From assembly GCA_019638085.1 (NCBI GenBank), contig JAHBUL010000003.1, positions 62,001 to 126,000 on the forward strand: a stretch of DNA of 64,000 nucleotides, given 5' to 3'. The notes beneath the pieces are model-generated. The model had not been told where the DNA came from and did not search any database. It worked only from the letters and a program-made list of their open reading frames with translations. This document shows positions 22,403-27,238 of the stretch, one piece after another; positions within the stretch are counted from its first letter, which is position 1; the number at the start of each line of letters is the position of its first letter. The DNA is from Flavobacteriales bacterium. Its GTDB lineage: Bacteria; Bacteroidota; Bacteroidia; Flavobacteriales_F; PHOS-HE28. The position numbers and the translations under genes are program-made.

Positions 22403-23323
22403 TCACACGTTCCGCAACCATTCCTTCGCATCCGCCGCATACATCCAGGCCACCCAGCCGTAATGGCAATAGACCAGCGCTTCCTCATAGCTGCCCGGCG
22501 AATAGTTCGATGCGATCTCCTTGGGTTCCTCCGGTGCCAATAGCATGGGGACAATGTGCCGGTTCTCGGCCATGGCCTGCTTGAGCAACTTGGTGGTCGC
22601 CGGGCCGGGGCCTACGGAAACGAAGCTGGCCAGCGTCCTGTTGAAGCGCATGAAAGCGCTTTCCTCCTCATCGAACTGCTTGTCGATCTCCCGGAACCTT
22701 TCCGGATGGGTAACAGCCATGAAAAGGCTCAACGGATAGCGCACGCCCTGGTTGTCCATGGGGTTCAGCATAAGCAGGTGGTCCCATATTGCAATGGAAC
22801 CATCCAAGCGTCCCGTGAAGTACAGGCGATCGGCAAGTTTCTGGAAACAGCGCATGTAGGGCCTTGTCTCGTGAAAGCCCCAGCACCGGCCCGTGTATTT
22901 TTCCACATCCTCCGGGTCCAGGAAAAAGCGCTCCTCACCGATGGTGACCACCCGGTCGTAGAATGCGATGGCGATGGATGGATGCTCTTCCATGTCGCCT
23001 AAGTATTCAAGTGCTACCATGCACTCCGGGTCCATGTCCAGGGCCTGCTCCACTACCTTCCTGCCTTTCGCGGGGGGAAGCGAATAGGCGCTCATCGCCA
23101 GTTCCTCGGCCTTCTCCGCATCGGTCTCCGGCTCGAACTCCGGGATGGGTTCGGCCATGAATTTTTCGAAGAAGGCATTGATATCGGCTTCACTCTTGAA
23201 GTCCTGCTTGGCCAACAGTTTTTGCAGGTCGTGCATGGCATCCATGCCGTTCCGATACAGATCGGAAGTCACGGTGTCCTTTTTCTTCGCCGCCTTTTTC
23301 GGCTGGCTTGCTTTCTTGGCCAT
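22403..23323 (-). CDS. TPR-like hypothetical protein downstream of rtcB
   Basis: A 306-residue soluble protein starting MAKKASQPKKAAKKKDTVTS, with a Lys-rich N-terminal tail. Helical repeat segments follow: AKGRKVVEQALDMDPECMVALEYLGDMEEHPSIAIAFYDR and LNPMDNQGVRYPLSLFMAV, the latter typical of TPR-like proteins of the ST7 type. Its C-terminus is acidic/aromatic (EEALVYCHYGWVAWMY). It starts 59 nt after the rtcB stop on the same strand, so it may be the last gene of that transcript. Role unknown. Confidence 0.65.
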   Translation of the reverse strand: MAKKASQPKKAAKKKDTVTSDLYRNGMDAMHDLQKLLAKQDFKSEADINAFFEKFMAEPIPEFEPETDAEKAEELAMSAYSLPPAKGRKVVEQALDMDPECMVALEYLGDMEEHPSIAIAFYDRVVTIGEERFFLDPEDVEKYTGRCWGFHETRPYMRCFQKLADRLYFTGRLDGSIAIWDHLLMLNPMDNQGVRYPLSLFMAVTHPERFREIDKQFDEEESAFMRFNRTLASFVSVGPGPATTKLLKQAMAENRHIVPMLLAPEEPKEIASNYSPGSYEEALVYCHYGWVAWMYAADAKEWLRNV

Positions 23324-23381: not shown

Positions 23382-24797
23382 TCAATCTTCCGCCGGACTT
23401 CCGTCACCGCACATGCGCACCACTTTGGGCGTGAAGGTGCCCATCACCTCCACCAGGTCGCGTTGGCTGTTCATCACGGTGTGAATGTCCTTGTAGGCCA
23501 TGGGCGCTTCATCCAGCCCGGCACCGATCAGGTCCACATCATGTTTCTTCAACATCTGCTTCACTTCCTTGGAAGTGATGGTGGCCTTGGCCCGGGTGCG
23601 GCTCATGGTACGTCCTGCGCCGTGGCTGGCACTGGCGATGCTTTCGGCCTTGCCGGTACCACGTACGATGAAGCCGGGTGCCGTCATGCTGCCGGGGATC
23701 ACGCCAAGCACGCCTTTGCCCGCGGGCGTGGCGCCCTTGCGGTGTACGATCAGTTCGCGGCCACCATGCATTTCCTTCCAGGCGAAATTGTGATGATTCT
23801 CCACCGTGGCCACGGGCCGTTCGCCCAAGGCCTTGAAGATGCGTGCATGGATCTGCTGGTGGTTGGCCGAGGCGTAGTCGCCCGCCAGTTGCATCGCCGC
23901 CCAGTATTCCTGTCCCTCGGCGCTGTCCAGTGAGAGCCATGCGAGGTTCTGCGCTTCCGCCGGCAGCTTGCACAATTCCTTGGCCAGGCGCGTGTAGTGC
24001 TGAGCGATGTTCGCACCCAGCCCACGCGATCCGCTGTGCGAAAGCAGCCCCACATATTCACCCACGGGCAGGCCGAATTCGTTGTGTACATCCGTGATCG
24101 CGACCACACCGAATTCCACGAAGTGGTTACCGCTGCCGCTGGACCCGATCTGCTGCCATGCGCGATCCTTCAGTTGTTTCACGATCGGGATGGTGTCGAA
24201 CTCCGCGCGCTCCAGCACGGGGTGGTCCATCCGCACCTCATGCACAGCGCGCCCGAAGCGGGTGTGCTCGAGGAGCAGACGTTTATGGTCGGCACGGTAT
24301 TGCTCCAACTTTTCGGGTGCCATGTTGAAGATGCTGAGGCTCATGCGGCAACCGATGTCCATGCCGACGCCGTAGGGGATCACTGCATTTTCAGTGGCCA
24401 GCACGCCACCAATGGGCAGCCCGTAGCCTTGGTGTGCATCGGGCATCAGCGCACCGGCCACGGTAATGGGCAGCTTCATGGCGGTCTCCATCTGCTGGAT
24501 GGCACCCTGCTCGATATGTTCCGCTCCGTAAATGCGATGCTCTTTCCGGGGAAGCAGCTCGTGCTGGTCCGCGGTCTTGCGGTCCGCGCCGGTCAACGCA
24601 TGCGCGATGGGTGCGTAGTGTTCGTGCTCACTGAATGAGTCGGGTTCCGCCAAGATCTGCTTGAGCACATCGAGCGCGTCCTCCTTCTTCATCCCGCGGT
24701 GATGCTTCACCATCACATTGATCGCAATACCGATCGCGCGGCTTTCGTGGAAGCCGATGGCGATGAGGTCCTTGCCGTGGAGTTTGAGGCGTTTCAT
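23382..24797 (-). CDS. rtcB: RNA-splicing ligase RtcB
   Basis: A 471-residue enzyme starting MKRLKLHGKDLIAIGFHESR. RtcB joins RNA ends bearing 2',3'-cyclic phosphate or 3'-phosphate to a 5'-OH, using GTP and Mn. Metal- and GTP-site motifs are in place: GVGMDIGCRMS with the Cys ligand, GSSGSGNHFVEFG, LLSHSGSRGLGANIA, and ASASHGAGRTMSRTRA with the His that takes GMP. The frame is open from 24917, but that leader spans a tRNA-like gene, so the ATG at 24797 is the start. It lies downstream of four tRNA-like genes and a slipin gene on the same strand. No archease gene is seen in the window. Confidence 0.96.
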   Translation of the reverse strand: MKRLKLHGKDLIAIGFHESRAIGIAINVMVKHHRGMKKEDALDVLKQILAEPDSFSEHEHYAPIAHALTGADRKTADQHELLPRKEHRIYGAEHIEQGAIQQMETAMKLPITVAGALMPDAHQGYGLPIGGVLATENAVIPYGVGMDIGCRMSLSIFNMAPEKLEQYRADHKRLLLEHTRFGRAVHEVRMDHPVLERAEFDTIPIVKQLKDRAWQQIGSSGSGNHFVEFGVVAITDVHNEFGLPVGEYVGLLSHSGSRGLGANIAQHYTRLAKELCKLPAEAQNLAWLSLDSAEGQEYWAAMQLAGDYASANHQQIHARIFKALGERPVATVENHHNFAWKEMHGGRELIVHRKGATPAGKGVLGVIPGSMTAPGFIVRGTGKAESIASASHGAGRTMSRTRAKATITSKEVKQMLKKHDVDLIGAGLDEAPMAYKDIHTVMNSQRDLVEVMGTFTPKVVRMCGDGSPAED

Positions 24798-24921: not shown

Positions 24922-24924
24922 GTG

Positions 24925-24995
24925 TGGAAGAGGATGGGATCGAACCATCACCTGCGGTGTTTCAGACCGCCGCTCTACCCTTGAGCTGCTCTTCC
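24925..24995 (-). tRNA. tRNA-Phe(GAA)-like
   Basis: A 71-nt unit. Acceptor GGAAGAG/CTCTTCC fully paired, D arm GCTC/GAGC with loop AAGGGTA, anticodon stem GCGGT/ACCGC with loop CTGAAAC (GAA), 4-nt variable loop AGGT, T arm GATGG/CCATC with loop TTCGATC. Position 8 is C, not the near-universal T. CCA is not encoded. All stems are perfect, so the structure is conserved even though a tertiary-contact base is changed. Confidence 0.85.
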
Positions 24996-25040
24996 TTCGG
25001 TCGCCATAGTCCGCCGATAGGGGGACGACGGCGGCCTTCG

Positions 25041-25112
25041 TTGGCCCGGCGGGACTCGAACCCGCACCCCTCGGTTAAGAGCCGAGTAGTCTTCCATACG
25101 ACCTCCAAGCCA
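25041..25112 (-). tRNA. tRNA-Lys(CUU)-like
   Basis: A 72-nt unit. Acceptor TGGCTTG/CGGGCCA (two G-T pairs), D arm GGTC/GACT, anticodon stem CTCGG/CCGAG with loop CTCTTAA (CUU), 4-nt variable loop, T arm GCGGG/CCCGC with loop TTCGAGT. Position 8 is G and position 14 is G, whereas T8 and A14 are near universal. The unit starts with T1. The downstream spacer (about 25013-25036) carries a CCGCCG/CGGCGG hairpin. Confidence 0.8.
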
Positions 25113-25190
25113 GTGTTTATCATTCGCATTCATCAGCGCTTCATCATCATGATCCGCGTCATCAGCGTTCCATTTTCTTATCGCACTTTG

Positions 25191-25262
25191 ACCATCAGGA
25201 AGGATTCGAACCTTCATCCTCCACCTTCGCACGGCGGTGCTCATCCATTGAGCTACTGATGG
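25191..25262 (-). tRNA. tRNA-Arg(GCG)-like
   Basis: A 72-nt unit. Acceptor CCATCAG/CTGATGG fully paired, T8 and A14 normal, D arm GCTC/GAGC, anticodon stem CCGCC/GGTGG with one wobble and loop GTGCGAA, so anticodon GCG (codon CGC), 5-nt variable loop, T arm GAAGG/CCTTC with loop TTCGAAT. A GCG-reading tRNA-Arg is uncommon in bacteria, which usually read CGC with inosine-modified ACG. Position 32 is G. The unit begins with C1. Confidence 0.8.
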
Positions 25263-25328: not shown

Positions 25329-26438
25329 TCAAGGAGCCTTGCCCGGAGAGAAGATCTCCTTCAATTGGTCAAGGACCTTGGCGTTACCACTGATGGAAAG
25401 CGTGTTCACCTTTTCGGCGATCTTCTCCACGTACTCCATTTCCTTCAACTTGAAGAGCATGGTGTTCTCCTCCATCAGCTTCGCGGTGTTCAGCAAGCTG
25501 CGCGTGCTCGCCGTTTCCTCGCGCCGCATGATGGTGTTGGCTTCCGCCTTCTTCTGCGCCACCAGCACCTGGTTCATGATCTCCTTCATGTCACCGGGCA
25601 GGATGATGTCCTTGATACCACCCGCATTGATGGCGATGCCCAGGGCTTCGGCCTGCGCGCTCACGCTCTCCTTCACGTAGGCCGTTACCGCGTCCTTGTC
25701 CGCGAGCACCTCATCCAGCAGGCGCGTGCCGATGAATTCACGCAGGGCCAATTGCACCAGAACATAGAGCTGCTTTTCGTTCTCCTTGTTCTCCAACAGC
25801 GCCTTGCGGATGTCGGTGATGCGGTACTGCAACGTGAAGTTCACACGCAGCGCGGCCTTGTCCTTGGTGAGGATCTCCTGACCGTTCACTTCCAGCTGGA
25901 GCTGGCGCGTGTCGGCCTTGAGCACCTGGATCACGATGCTGTTCTTCGCGAAGAAGTACGTACCGGGATCGAGCATGCGTTGCGCCTCACCGTTCACCAG
26001 GAGGATGCCCTTTTCGTAAGGCTCCACGTTGTATGCACGGATGTAGGGCAGCAGCGCCGGCTTCATCAGCAGGTCGGGGTCCACGTTGGCGGGGATCTCG
26101 GCTTGCGCCAGGTCCACCTCCATGAAGGCGTACTTCACCAAACCCTTGAAGAAGGCGTAGCGGCCGGGCTTCAGCACTTCCTGGAAGTTACCGTTGCGGT
26201 ACATCAGGACGATGCGGTTGTCCGGCACTTCCACCACGGTGAGCCGTGCGGCGAGTTCGGCGTCCTGCAACAGGATGTCGAGTTCCACCGGCGGGGTGAA
26301 GGGCAGCGCGAGGTTGTACACGCGCACGGTGTCGAAGGGGGCGAGCACATGCAGGCCCGGCTTCAGTACGCGGGTGTAGTTGCCGAAGCGGAAGACCAGG
26401 CCGACCTTGCCTTCGGTGATGCGTTGGATGTTGAACAT
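25329..26438 (-). CDS. Slipin / SPFH (band 7) family protein
   Basis: A 369-residue protein starting MFNIQRITEGKVGLVFRFGN. Two N-terminal beta-rich stretches (KVGLVFRFGNYTRVLKPGLH and NRIVLMYRNGNFQEVLKPGR) precede an SPFH domain: GQEILTKDKAALRVNFTLQY, KQLYVLVQLALREFIGTRLL and IKDIILPGDMKEIMNQVLVAQ. A C-terminal coiled coil follows (RREETASTRSLLNTAKLMEE). No transmembrane helix is obvious, as in this subgroup. The frame is open to 26585, but family alignment fixes the start. It lies between the permuted tRNA-like units and the linear tRNA-like units on the rtcB strand, which suggests a shared function. I infer an RNA-repair context; SPFH proteins form ring assemblies elsewhere. Confidence 0.9.
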   Translation of the reverse strand: MFNIQRITEGKVGLVFRFGNYTRVLKPGLHVLAPFDTVRVYNLALPFTPPVELDILLQDAELAARLTVVEVPDNRIVLMYRNGNFQEVLKPGRYAFFKGLVKYAFMEVDLAQAEIPANVDPDLLMKPALLPYIRAYNVEPYEKGILLVNGEAQRMLDPGTYFFAKNSIVIQVLKADTRQLQLEVNGQEILTKDKAALRVNFTLQYRITDIRKALLENKENEKQLYVLVQLALREFIGTRLLDEVLADKDAVTAYVKESVSAQAEALGIAINAGGIKDIILPGDMKEIMNQVLVAQKKAEANTIMRREETASTRSLLNTAKLMEENTMLFKLKEMEYVEKIAEKVNTLSISGNAKVLDQLKEIFSPGKAP

Positions 26439-26857
26439 GGTACGTTGTTGTGTTGGCCTTCGCAAAGCAGTACCGCGCCATGCGTTGGGAATGGGATGCC
26501 CGTTGACCGGTGGGCACCTTGCCGGGTTATCGTGAGAGCGAAAAGTGCTCGTGTGTTGAGTAAGAAAGCGATGAGGAAACGCCACCTGCGTTCAGCGGGG
26601 ACATCGATGCCATGCGCGGGCTTCCGCGGTTCCGCTCACCGTTGCACATCATCGTGACGACCTTTAAAAGTCGCCATCCAAATGCACTTGGGCGACGGGA
26701 ACCTTGGTGCCGTTGATGAGCAGCGCGAGGTTCACAGGATGAACACGGGTCGTCCGTTGCGTTCGCCGTAACGTGGCTTGCGCGCGGGACCGGTGGATCC
26801 ATCATCGCTTTCAGCGAATGGGCATTTTTAGGGAAGCGCCCGGCTTCCTTCCTCTGT
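26439..26857. other. Leader region of the slipin gene, no gene recognised
   Basis: About 420 nt between the slipin start and the tRNA-like units. The open frame on the minus strand at 26527-26805 has no recognisable content. Immediately 3' of the tRNA-like units on the minus strand, CTCTGTCACAGAG (26853-26865) and GGAAGC-CGGGC-GCTTCC (about 26833-26849) form hairpins; the second is followed by CTAAAAA and could act as a weak attenuator. Confidence 0.5.
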
Positions 26858-26935
26858 GACAGAGTCCATTGCTCTACCGATTGAGCTAACCTGACCTTGC
26901 GGTCAAGGACGGGATTCGAACCCGCGACACATGGA
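26858..26935 (-). ncRNA. Second permuted tRNA-like unit (3' half before 5' half)
   Basis: Read on the minus strand: TCCAT (anticodon stem, 3' strand), variable GTGTC, T arm GCGGG/CCCGT with loop TTCGAAT, acceptor 3' strand CCTTGAC, linker CGCAAG, acceptor 5' strand GTCAGGT, TA, D arm GCTC/GAGC with loop AATCGGTA, A26, then ATGGA (anticodon stem, 5' strand). ATGGA pairs perfectly with TCCAT. The acceptor has five Watson-Crick pairs, one wobble and one mismatch; an extra C-G pair brings the linker to a GCAA loop. The next 7 nt, CTCTGTC, could be the loop (C32, T33) but have T37, so the anticodon is uncertain. It shares one base with the unit at 26935-27009. Confidence 0.65.
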
Positions 26936-27009
26936 TCGGTGCTCTTGCCAACTGAGCTATCCGCCTTAAGGCGGAGCAGGGATCGAACCTGCGACTTCCG
27001 ATGTGGGAG
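26935..27009 (-). tRNA. Circularly permuted tRNA-Gly(CCC)
   Basis: Read on the minus strand: loop CTCCCAC, stem ATCGG, variable AAGTC, T arm GCAGG/CCTGC with loop TTCGATC, acceptor 3' strand TCCGCCT, linker TA, acceptor 5' strand AGGCGGA, T8 A9, D arm GCTC/GAGC with loop AGTTGGCAA, A26, stem CCGAT. Rejoining end to start gives a full tRNA: acceptor 7/7 pairs, anticodon stem CCGAT/ATCGG 5/5, T stem 5/5, D stem 4/4, C32 T33 CCC A37 C38, C48, G18G19. Every position is present once. Read linearly there is no anticodon loop and no acceptor pairing. Maturation would need joining at the 31/32 position (a job for RtcB) and removal of the acceptor linker. Confidence 0.8.
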
Positions 27010-27112: not shown

Positions 27113-27238
27113 CTTGTCCGCCGTACGGAGGACAAGATGTTTTGTGCTGAAAGCACAGTATGTAAAAGAACGTTCATCGTTCAGGGGGTCTCCGCGGTCC
27201 TGCTCCCGCCGGACTTCCTTCCGAATGCGGAGACCCCC
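27113..27238 (-). ncRNA. Candidate structured RNA: four consecutive hairpins
   Basis: In minus-strand order: 27238-27184, a 12-bp perfect stem GGGGGTCTCCGC/GCGGAGACCCCC enclosing GTCC/GGAC; 27182-27168, GAACG-ATGAA-CGTTC; 27157-27143, TGTGC-TTTCA-GCACA; 27136-27113, CTTGTCC/GGACAAG with inner CCG/CGG. No open frame explains this density of dyads. It lies upstream of the permuted tRNA-like units and may be a leader or separate small RNA. Strand is assumed from the neighbours. Confidence 0.5.

Follow-up and report, generated by a model that had tools for sequence, protein, structure and literature searches.

A structured non-coding RNA located directly 5' of a gene for a Band_7/SPFH protein, of the membrane-scaffold type, was characterized in a Flavobacteriales bacterium (GenBank assembly GCA_019638085.1, contig JAHBUL010000003.1, positions 62,001 to 126,000 of the forward strand; this whole stretch of 64,000 nucleotides (nt) is referred to as the window). 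It includes two consecutive units resembling transfer RNA (tRNA), and the second of them, unit 2, is the feature under study (Table 1). As judged from its sequence, unit 2 is a YrlA-type (Y-RNA-like) module, composed of a T arm, a capped acceptor hairpin and a D arm. Comparison of loci indicates that the same RNA precedes the Band_7 gene across the phylum Bacteroidota. With modest confidence, we lean towards viewing it as a large structured RNA of an SPFH-RtcB RNA-repair operon, in which the YrlA-type modules would provide a tRNA-mimicking platform or decoy.

The boundaries of unit 2 (26935-26858, minus strand), its permuted order, and its T and D arms were already given in a preliminary description of this DNA, and all of them hold. 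The T arm extends from 26925 to 26909, with the stem GCGGG/CCCGT and the loop TTCGAAT, while the D arm, GCTC..GAGC, ends at 26871. The acceptor hairpin is formed by CTTGACC and GGTCAGG (26907-26901 with 26896-26890), which enclose the loop GCAA. Instead of the five pairs, one wobble and one mismatch described previously, the acceptor is better drawn with seven of seven pairs, six Watson-Crick and one G.U, if C26908 is left unpaired. Downstream of the D arm, the anticodon region (26869-26858) is degenerate. Unit 1 comprises an ATCGG closing strand, a T arm, the acceptor hairpin TCCGCC-TTAA-GGCGGA, a D arm and a CCGAT closing strand. A single base, 26935, is common to the two units, as had been noticed.

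Both units were matched to YrlA (RF02553) by cmscan at a relaxed threshold, unit 1 with 42.9 bits (E = 3.9e-8) and unit 2 with 33.0 bits (E = 2.9e-5), neither of them reaching the gathering score of 69. The matches are partial and cover model positions 23-88, i.e. the tRNA-like module, and the basal Ro60-binding stem of YrlA (model positions 1-22 and 89-114) is outside both. Apart from pieces of YrlA and tRNA, Rfam at relaxed threshold disclosed nothing meaningful in the window and in locus L108. No complete tRNA was detected at the units by ARAGORN or by the Rfam tRNA model at threshold. Folding energy alone would not reveal the units, because it is not significant for the 211-nt stretch (z = -1.0).

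In the same genus, nine of the 45 genomes searched, the host and eight other species, contain the units in a conserved stretch that starts with ACGTTCTTTNACATA and reaches the Band_7 start codon ~700-735 nt later. Band_7 comes next wherever the 3' sequence was retrieved, followed in most copies by a row of tRNA genes and RtcB. Ten core sequences, folded with nine compensatory pairs, were used to build covariance model R1, with which the RNA could be traced to further families of the class; three additional genomes were gained with R2, a broader model. The 80 best loci from a search for the Band_7 protein nearly all belong to Bacteroidota according to their record titles; a few titles of metagenome-assembled genomes give Rickettsiales, Thalassobius or Chlorobiota instead, perhaps through mislabelling. 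The 77 loci with at least 500 nt upstream were used for counts of cores and units. The core was found in 74 of them at E <= 0.01 with R1 or R2, E-values of both models being rough, and at least one tRNA-like unit in 73. R2 also matches loci left out of its building (L179-L182, L184 and L185).

Acceptor arms were examined in 27 units from 16 genomes by scoring six bases on each side of the acceptor loop. Arms paired with their own partners at 5.48 of 6 positions and with swapped partners at 2.86 of 6, a difference not reached in any of 10,000 permutations. In an alignment of 71 units, 97.5% of cells are paired (T stem 99.7%, acceptor 94.8%, D stem 98.6%), percentages that are biased because most units were preselected for at least four acceptor pairs. 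Compensatory changes are less affected by this selection; they occur on both sides at all six acceptor pairs, and the covariation score is 0.74, compared with 0.23 after shuffling. Acceptor loops are short and variable, mostly 3-10 nt. The GNRA loop previously reported for unit 2 is real in the window, but sister copies have ATAG, AGCGAT, CACTC and TTAA in its place, and it is no family trait. Each RNA contains one to three units: a single one in 46 of the 80 RNAs and two or more in 34. One outcome named in the preliminary description as contrary to its reading, nothing but random sequence in place of unit 2 in homologues, is therefore not seen. Two near relatives have a small hairpin in place of the second unit. 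The proposed chain of acceptor-closed tRNA mimics is thus found across Bacteroidota.

The manner in which units are joined was assessed by pairing their flanks. Swapped flanks pair less well than the true ones both for first units (34 RNAs) and for single units (46 RNAs), with 0 of 2000 permutations in each case, which indicates a closing stem, as in YrlA. In last units of multi-unit RNAs, flanks pair no better than expected by chance (536 of 2000 permutations). Instead, 24 of the 34 last units have a local 5-7-5 anticodon hairpin 3' of the D arm (7.5% at shifted control positions); U33 is present in 21 of these hairpins and a purine at position 37 in 23. The break in the last unit is therefore between the anticodon arm and the T arm, and not in the anticodon loop. 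Because of these closing stems and local hairpins, with the pseudoknot following, the data support a predicted linear fold comprising the core, the closed unit or units, the anticodon arm and the pseudoknot. Neither the open anticodon ends suggested earlier nor a cutting-out of individual units is supported; covariation favours one linear RNA, a result that the preliminary description itself had named as contrary to its reading.

The window copy has lost the 3' half of the anticodon hairpin (ATGGACTCTGTCACAG, compared with CTGGACTGTTAATCCAG in relatives), so the stem between TCCAT (26935-26931) and ATGGA (26869-26865) is a private feature of the window. This stem, described before as the anticodon stem of unit 2, may form here, but it is unsupported across the family. 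An origin of the anticodon arm as a recent copy of a resident tRNA-Asn arm was also considered and rejected: in three carriers, GGACTGTTAATCC is present only once, inside the RNA itself.

Even where the core is well conserved, the anticodon changes from one near relative to the next; within the genus, it was read as Thr UGU, Asn GUU, Arg UCG, Leu GAG, Cys GCA and Ile GAU. Such diversity, together with the intact stems and tRNA-like loop positions noted above, would suit a bait for anticodon nucleases. In this reading, the hairpin that follows the last unit would be cut as a sacrifice or as a sensor and re-sealed by RtcB, and its anticodon would change with the toxins encountered. We consider this improbable, as the hairpin is present in only 11 of the 46 single-unit RNAs and missing from the window copy, and the tRNA-like YrlA of Salmonella was not cleaved by the tRNA nuclease (PMC7790460).

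Precedence of the 3' half over the 5' half is shared with the permuted tRNA genes of Cyanidioschyzon, and RtcB, which could circularise excised units into working tRNAs, is encoded nearby. However, the anticodon stem at the outer ends, expected for permuted genes, is found in first and single units and fails in last units of chains, where the local hairpin occurs. In addition, the acceptor loop is kept and very small, nothing points to excision, the units in the window share a base, their number varies, and the entire block is inside a larger conserved RNA. We therefore regard genes of this type as a very improbable explanation. Least credible of all is a decayed array of ordinary tRNA genes, permuted only in appearance. 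The units are clearly derived from tRNA halves, and a T arm followed by the D arm of the next tRNA in an array can imitate a YrlA match. A comparison with junctions of real tRNA arrays is confounded by the presence of tandem duplicates, in which the acceptors pair (mean 4.4 of 6); for this reason, the case against decay rests on the short loops, on the usual absence of an anticodon arm between a D arm and the next T arm, and on the compensatory acceptor changes across the 71 units, to which the negative ARAGORN result can be added.

Upstream of the units, the core was evaluated in 68 sequences, in an alignment fitted to the covariance model. In total, 91.5% of cells are paired, compared with 65.9% after shuffling, and both sides have changed in 33 of the 36 pairs. 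The covariation score of 0.70 (0.24 shuffled) falls to 0.08-0.12 when partners are slid by one to three columns. On the other side of the units, the pseudoknot reads GGAAG-CCGGGCG-CTTCC-CTAAAAA-TGCCC, with TGCCC pairing with the loop bases GGGCG across an A-rich linker. Its layout was recognized in 57 RNAs, in which own pairing is 11.9 and swapped pairing 7.6 (0 of 2000 permutations). A PreQ1-like riboswitch was dropped as a reading of the pseudoknot because its loop and tail vary freely, without fixed binding bases in common. Between the pseudoknot and Band_7, 26 of 73 family loci have a GATACCG motif (L095-L169, 330 nt 5' of Band_7), which is probably part of a 3' domain.

A Band_7 gene of the same family lies on the same strand, directly 3' of the RNA, in all 18 genomes found by RNA/DNA search alone, and this placement recurs in 73 of the 77 loci. 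Such constancy would be expected if the RNA were a cis-acting leader, i.e. the 5' untranslated region of the Band_7-RtcB operon, with expression switched by binding or loss of a tRNA-binding factor or by a nuclease cut in the anticodon hairpin. The pseudoknot toward the 3' side agrees with this, and a scan of the window found no terminator-like site between the RNA and the Band_7 gene. On the other hand, 300-400 nt separate the pseudoknot from the start codon in this genus, and tRNA genes just upstream in relatives suggest processing of the transcript. Neither a conserved terminator nor an alternative that masks the ribosome site was found, no systematic test having been made. Taken together, we rate a leader as rather unlikely.

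The known system closest in structure is YrlA, with the same order of arms, a closing stem at the anticodon-stem position and occurrence in RtcB RNA-repair operons. The RNA differs in having one to three modules within ~450-735 nt that also include a core and a pseudoknot of their own, in low and partial model scores, in the absence of a matched Ro60-binding stem and in carriers that mostly lack Ro60. The Salmonella rsr-yrlBA-rtcBA operon likewise combines the RtcB ligase with a tRNA-mimicking RNA in a context of RNA repair (PMC7790460). Here, an SPFH protein takes the place of Ro60, a WYL protein (in relatives) that of RtcR, and tRNA genes are included in the locus. In Anabaena, the TrcR regulon unites the 26-tRNA trn operon, rtcB and the slipin gene alr0740 under one repressor, lifted by translation stress (PMC10272220). 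Co-expression of a tRNA array, RtcB and a slipin-family gene is comparable, although the Anabaena genes are scattered, the repressor is of the ribbon-helix-helix type, and the text of that paper reports no tRNA-like RNA. A tRNA-like part and a pseudoknot are also features of transfer-messenger RNA (tmRNA); the RNA described here has no tmRNA match at threshold, a capped acceptor stem and no tag reading frame seen.

The platform or decoy role that we favour follows from analogy with three observations: PNPase is attached to Rsr, the Ro60 homologue, through the tRNA-like domain of YrlA, a domain that DusA and TruB modify (PMC8394870), the Salmonella RNA repair operon responds to tRNA fragments (PMC7790460), and the Anabaena genes are regulated together as above. 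In such a model, the RNA would be transcribed together with the operon, and its units, having a capped acceptor stem, could be neither charged nor matured at the acceptor. Factors that bind tRNA would be offered the elbows of these units and, in many relatives, an anticodon loop as well, and the RNA may in this way bring factors that handle damaged tRNA (nucleases, PNPase, RtcB) to the SPFH oligomer in translation stress. The second module of the window copy would retain the elbow, with the anticodon hairpin lost.

Several points weigh against this interpretation. Strict cis linkage to Band_7 suits a leader element about equally well, and part of the loci have no RtcB within 5 kb. Furthermore, YrlA modules have Ro60 as their known partner, and Ro60 is missing from the host genome (99% complete) and from 16 of 17 carriers tested, while it is present in the classic-YrlA genomes used as controls. 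Since the host lacks Ro60, its RNA is not a standard Y RNA. A more far-reaching proposal, which we put forward only tentatively and doubt more than we believe, is an SPFH-linked RNA class with interchangeable elbows and anticodon arms acting as replaceable baits or sensors for enzymes that cut tRNA, their cleavage coupled to RtcB repair, in a ribonucleoprotein resembling Ro60-YrlA with an SPFH ring replacing Ro60.

Known tRNA mimicry by Y RNAs is tied to Ro60, whereas here the module is multiplied, often joined to an anticodon arm, and part of a large RNA class tied to an SPFH protein and RtcB across Bacteroidota. The class would amount to a naturally occurring series of tRNA decoys that can be exchanged for one another, their anticodons differing between close relatives, and would thereby offer a direct route to what RtcB repair operons defend against and to the role of slipin-type proteins in RNA repair. 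It is absent from Rfam 15, and no earlier description was found in full-text searches, which covered part of the literature on these operons; the class is new in this sense, and may have been described before.

Table 1. Features of the RNA and its operon in the window
Feature	Position	Strand	Basis or remark
Structured non-coding RNA, ~735 nt	27173-26439	minus	directly 5' of Band_7/SPFH gene
boxA-like start ACGTTCTTTTACA, first conserved block of RNA	27161..27173	minus	kept in 9 same-genus copies
Conserved core, 36 pairs in 6 helices	27007..27115	minus	covariance model R1; 68-sequence alignment
tRNA-like unit 1	26935..27002	minus	cmscan YrlA; closing stem of first units supported
tRNA-like unit 2 (feature under study)	26858..26935	minus	cmscan YrlA; unit alignment
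H-type pseudoknot	26820..26848	minus	own vs swapped pairing, 57 RNAs
RNA 3' part up to Band_7 start codon	26439..26819	minus	alignable in same-genus copies
Band_7/SPFH protein, 369 amino acids: three small beta repeats, then SPFH domain	25329..26438	minus	Pfam PF01145 E=1e-31; structure models
tRNA-Arg(gcg)	25190..25262	minus	ARAGORN, Rfam
tRNA-Lys(ctt)	25040..25112	minus	ARAGORN, Rfam
tRNA-Phe(gaa)	24924..24995	minus	ARAGORN, Rfam
RtcB RNA ligase	23382..24797	minus	Pfam PF01139 E=1.3e-86
306-amino-acid protein without Pfam match, next gene, same direction	22403..23323	minus	Pfam scan

The genes 3' of the RNA follow it in the same direction, in the order Band_7/SPFH, tRNA-Arg, tRNA-Lys, tRNA-Phe, RtcB and the 306-amino-acid protein. 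We infer that RtcB starts at MKRLKLHGKDL, in a reading frame open from 24917. Neither the RtcA cyclase nor the RtcR regulator was present among the open reading frames scanned adjoining the locus, no genome-wide search having been made. The RNA start is a motif that we take to be a boxA. Immediately 5' of it is a strong hairpin, GGGGGTCTCCGC..GCGGAGACCCCC (27239-27187, minus strand), a position often occupied by a tRNA-Leu or tRNA-Met gene in same-genus relatives. Farther 5', at 27480-27460 and 27296-27270 on the minus strand, two hairpins with T runs resemble terminators and probably mark the ends of earlier transcripts.

The structure prediction for the Band_7 protein comprises three five-stranded repeats and the SPFH domain. 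Residues 4-318 of the whole model align to residues 273-684 of the major vault protein MVP (Z 12.5, 218 aligned). For the repeats alone, the best matches are SPFH1 domains, those of erlin and prohibitin (Z 6.0 over 43 residues), with Z 3.9 for the MVP repeats. A vault-like cage is not claimed, since the likeness became weaker once the repeats were modelled and searched by themselves. Phage origin was rejected as well, no relative of the protein being found in viral contigs. One locus (L045:7677-9197, genome G084) encodes a Band_7 protein of 507 amino acids, which has an additional set of beta repeats at its N terminus.

Within ~5 kb of the 80 Band_7 genes, RtcB was found in 51 loci, a divergent WYL regulator in 39, a TPR protein in 22, RlaP in 10, Ro60 in 7 and an RF-1-domain protein like PrfH in 6. 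RlaP is an RNA-repair nucleotidyltransferase, and these neighbours are parts of RNA-repair operons. The WYL-WCX regulators at L046:7001-8716 and L073:9699-11420, divergent to the RNA, are fused to a PhyH-type dioxygenase domain. With regard to Ro60, genome G084 has both Ro60 and classic Y RNAs alongside the Band_7-linked RNA. Short classic YrlA RNAs, some of them in tandem, were observed in genomes with Ro60 at L051 (G088), L052 (G090), L049 (G099) and L048 (G100), and carry the motif GGTGCCGTAG..TACTTCG..TTGCCC. Over half of the loci scanned include tRNA genes, mostly just upstream. A tRNA row, composed of Arg, Gln, Glu, Asn, Asp, Lys, Phe and His, lies between Band_7 and RtcB at L038:11272-12497, and several of its tRNAs belong to species known as targets of anticodon nucleases.
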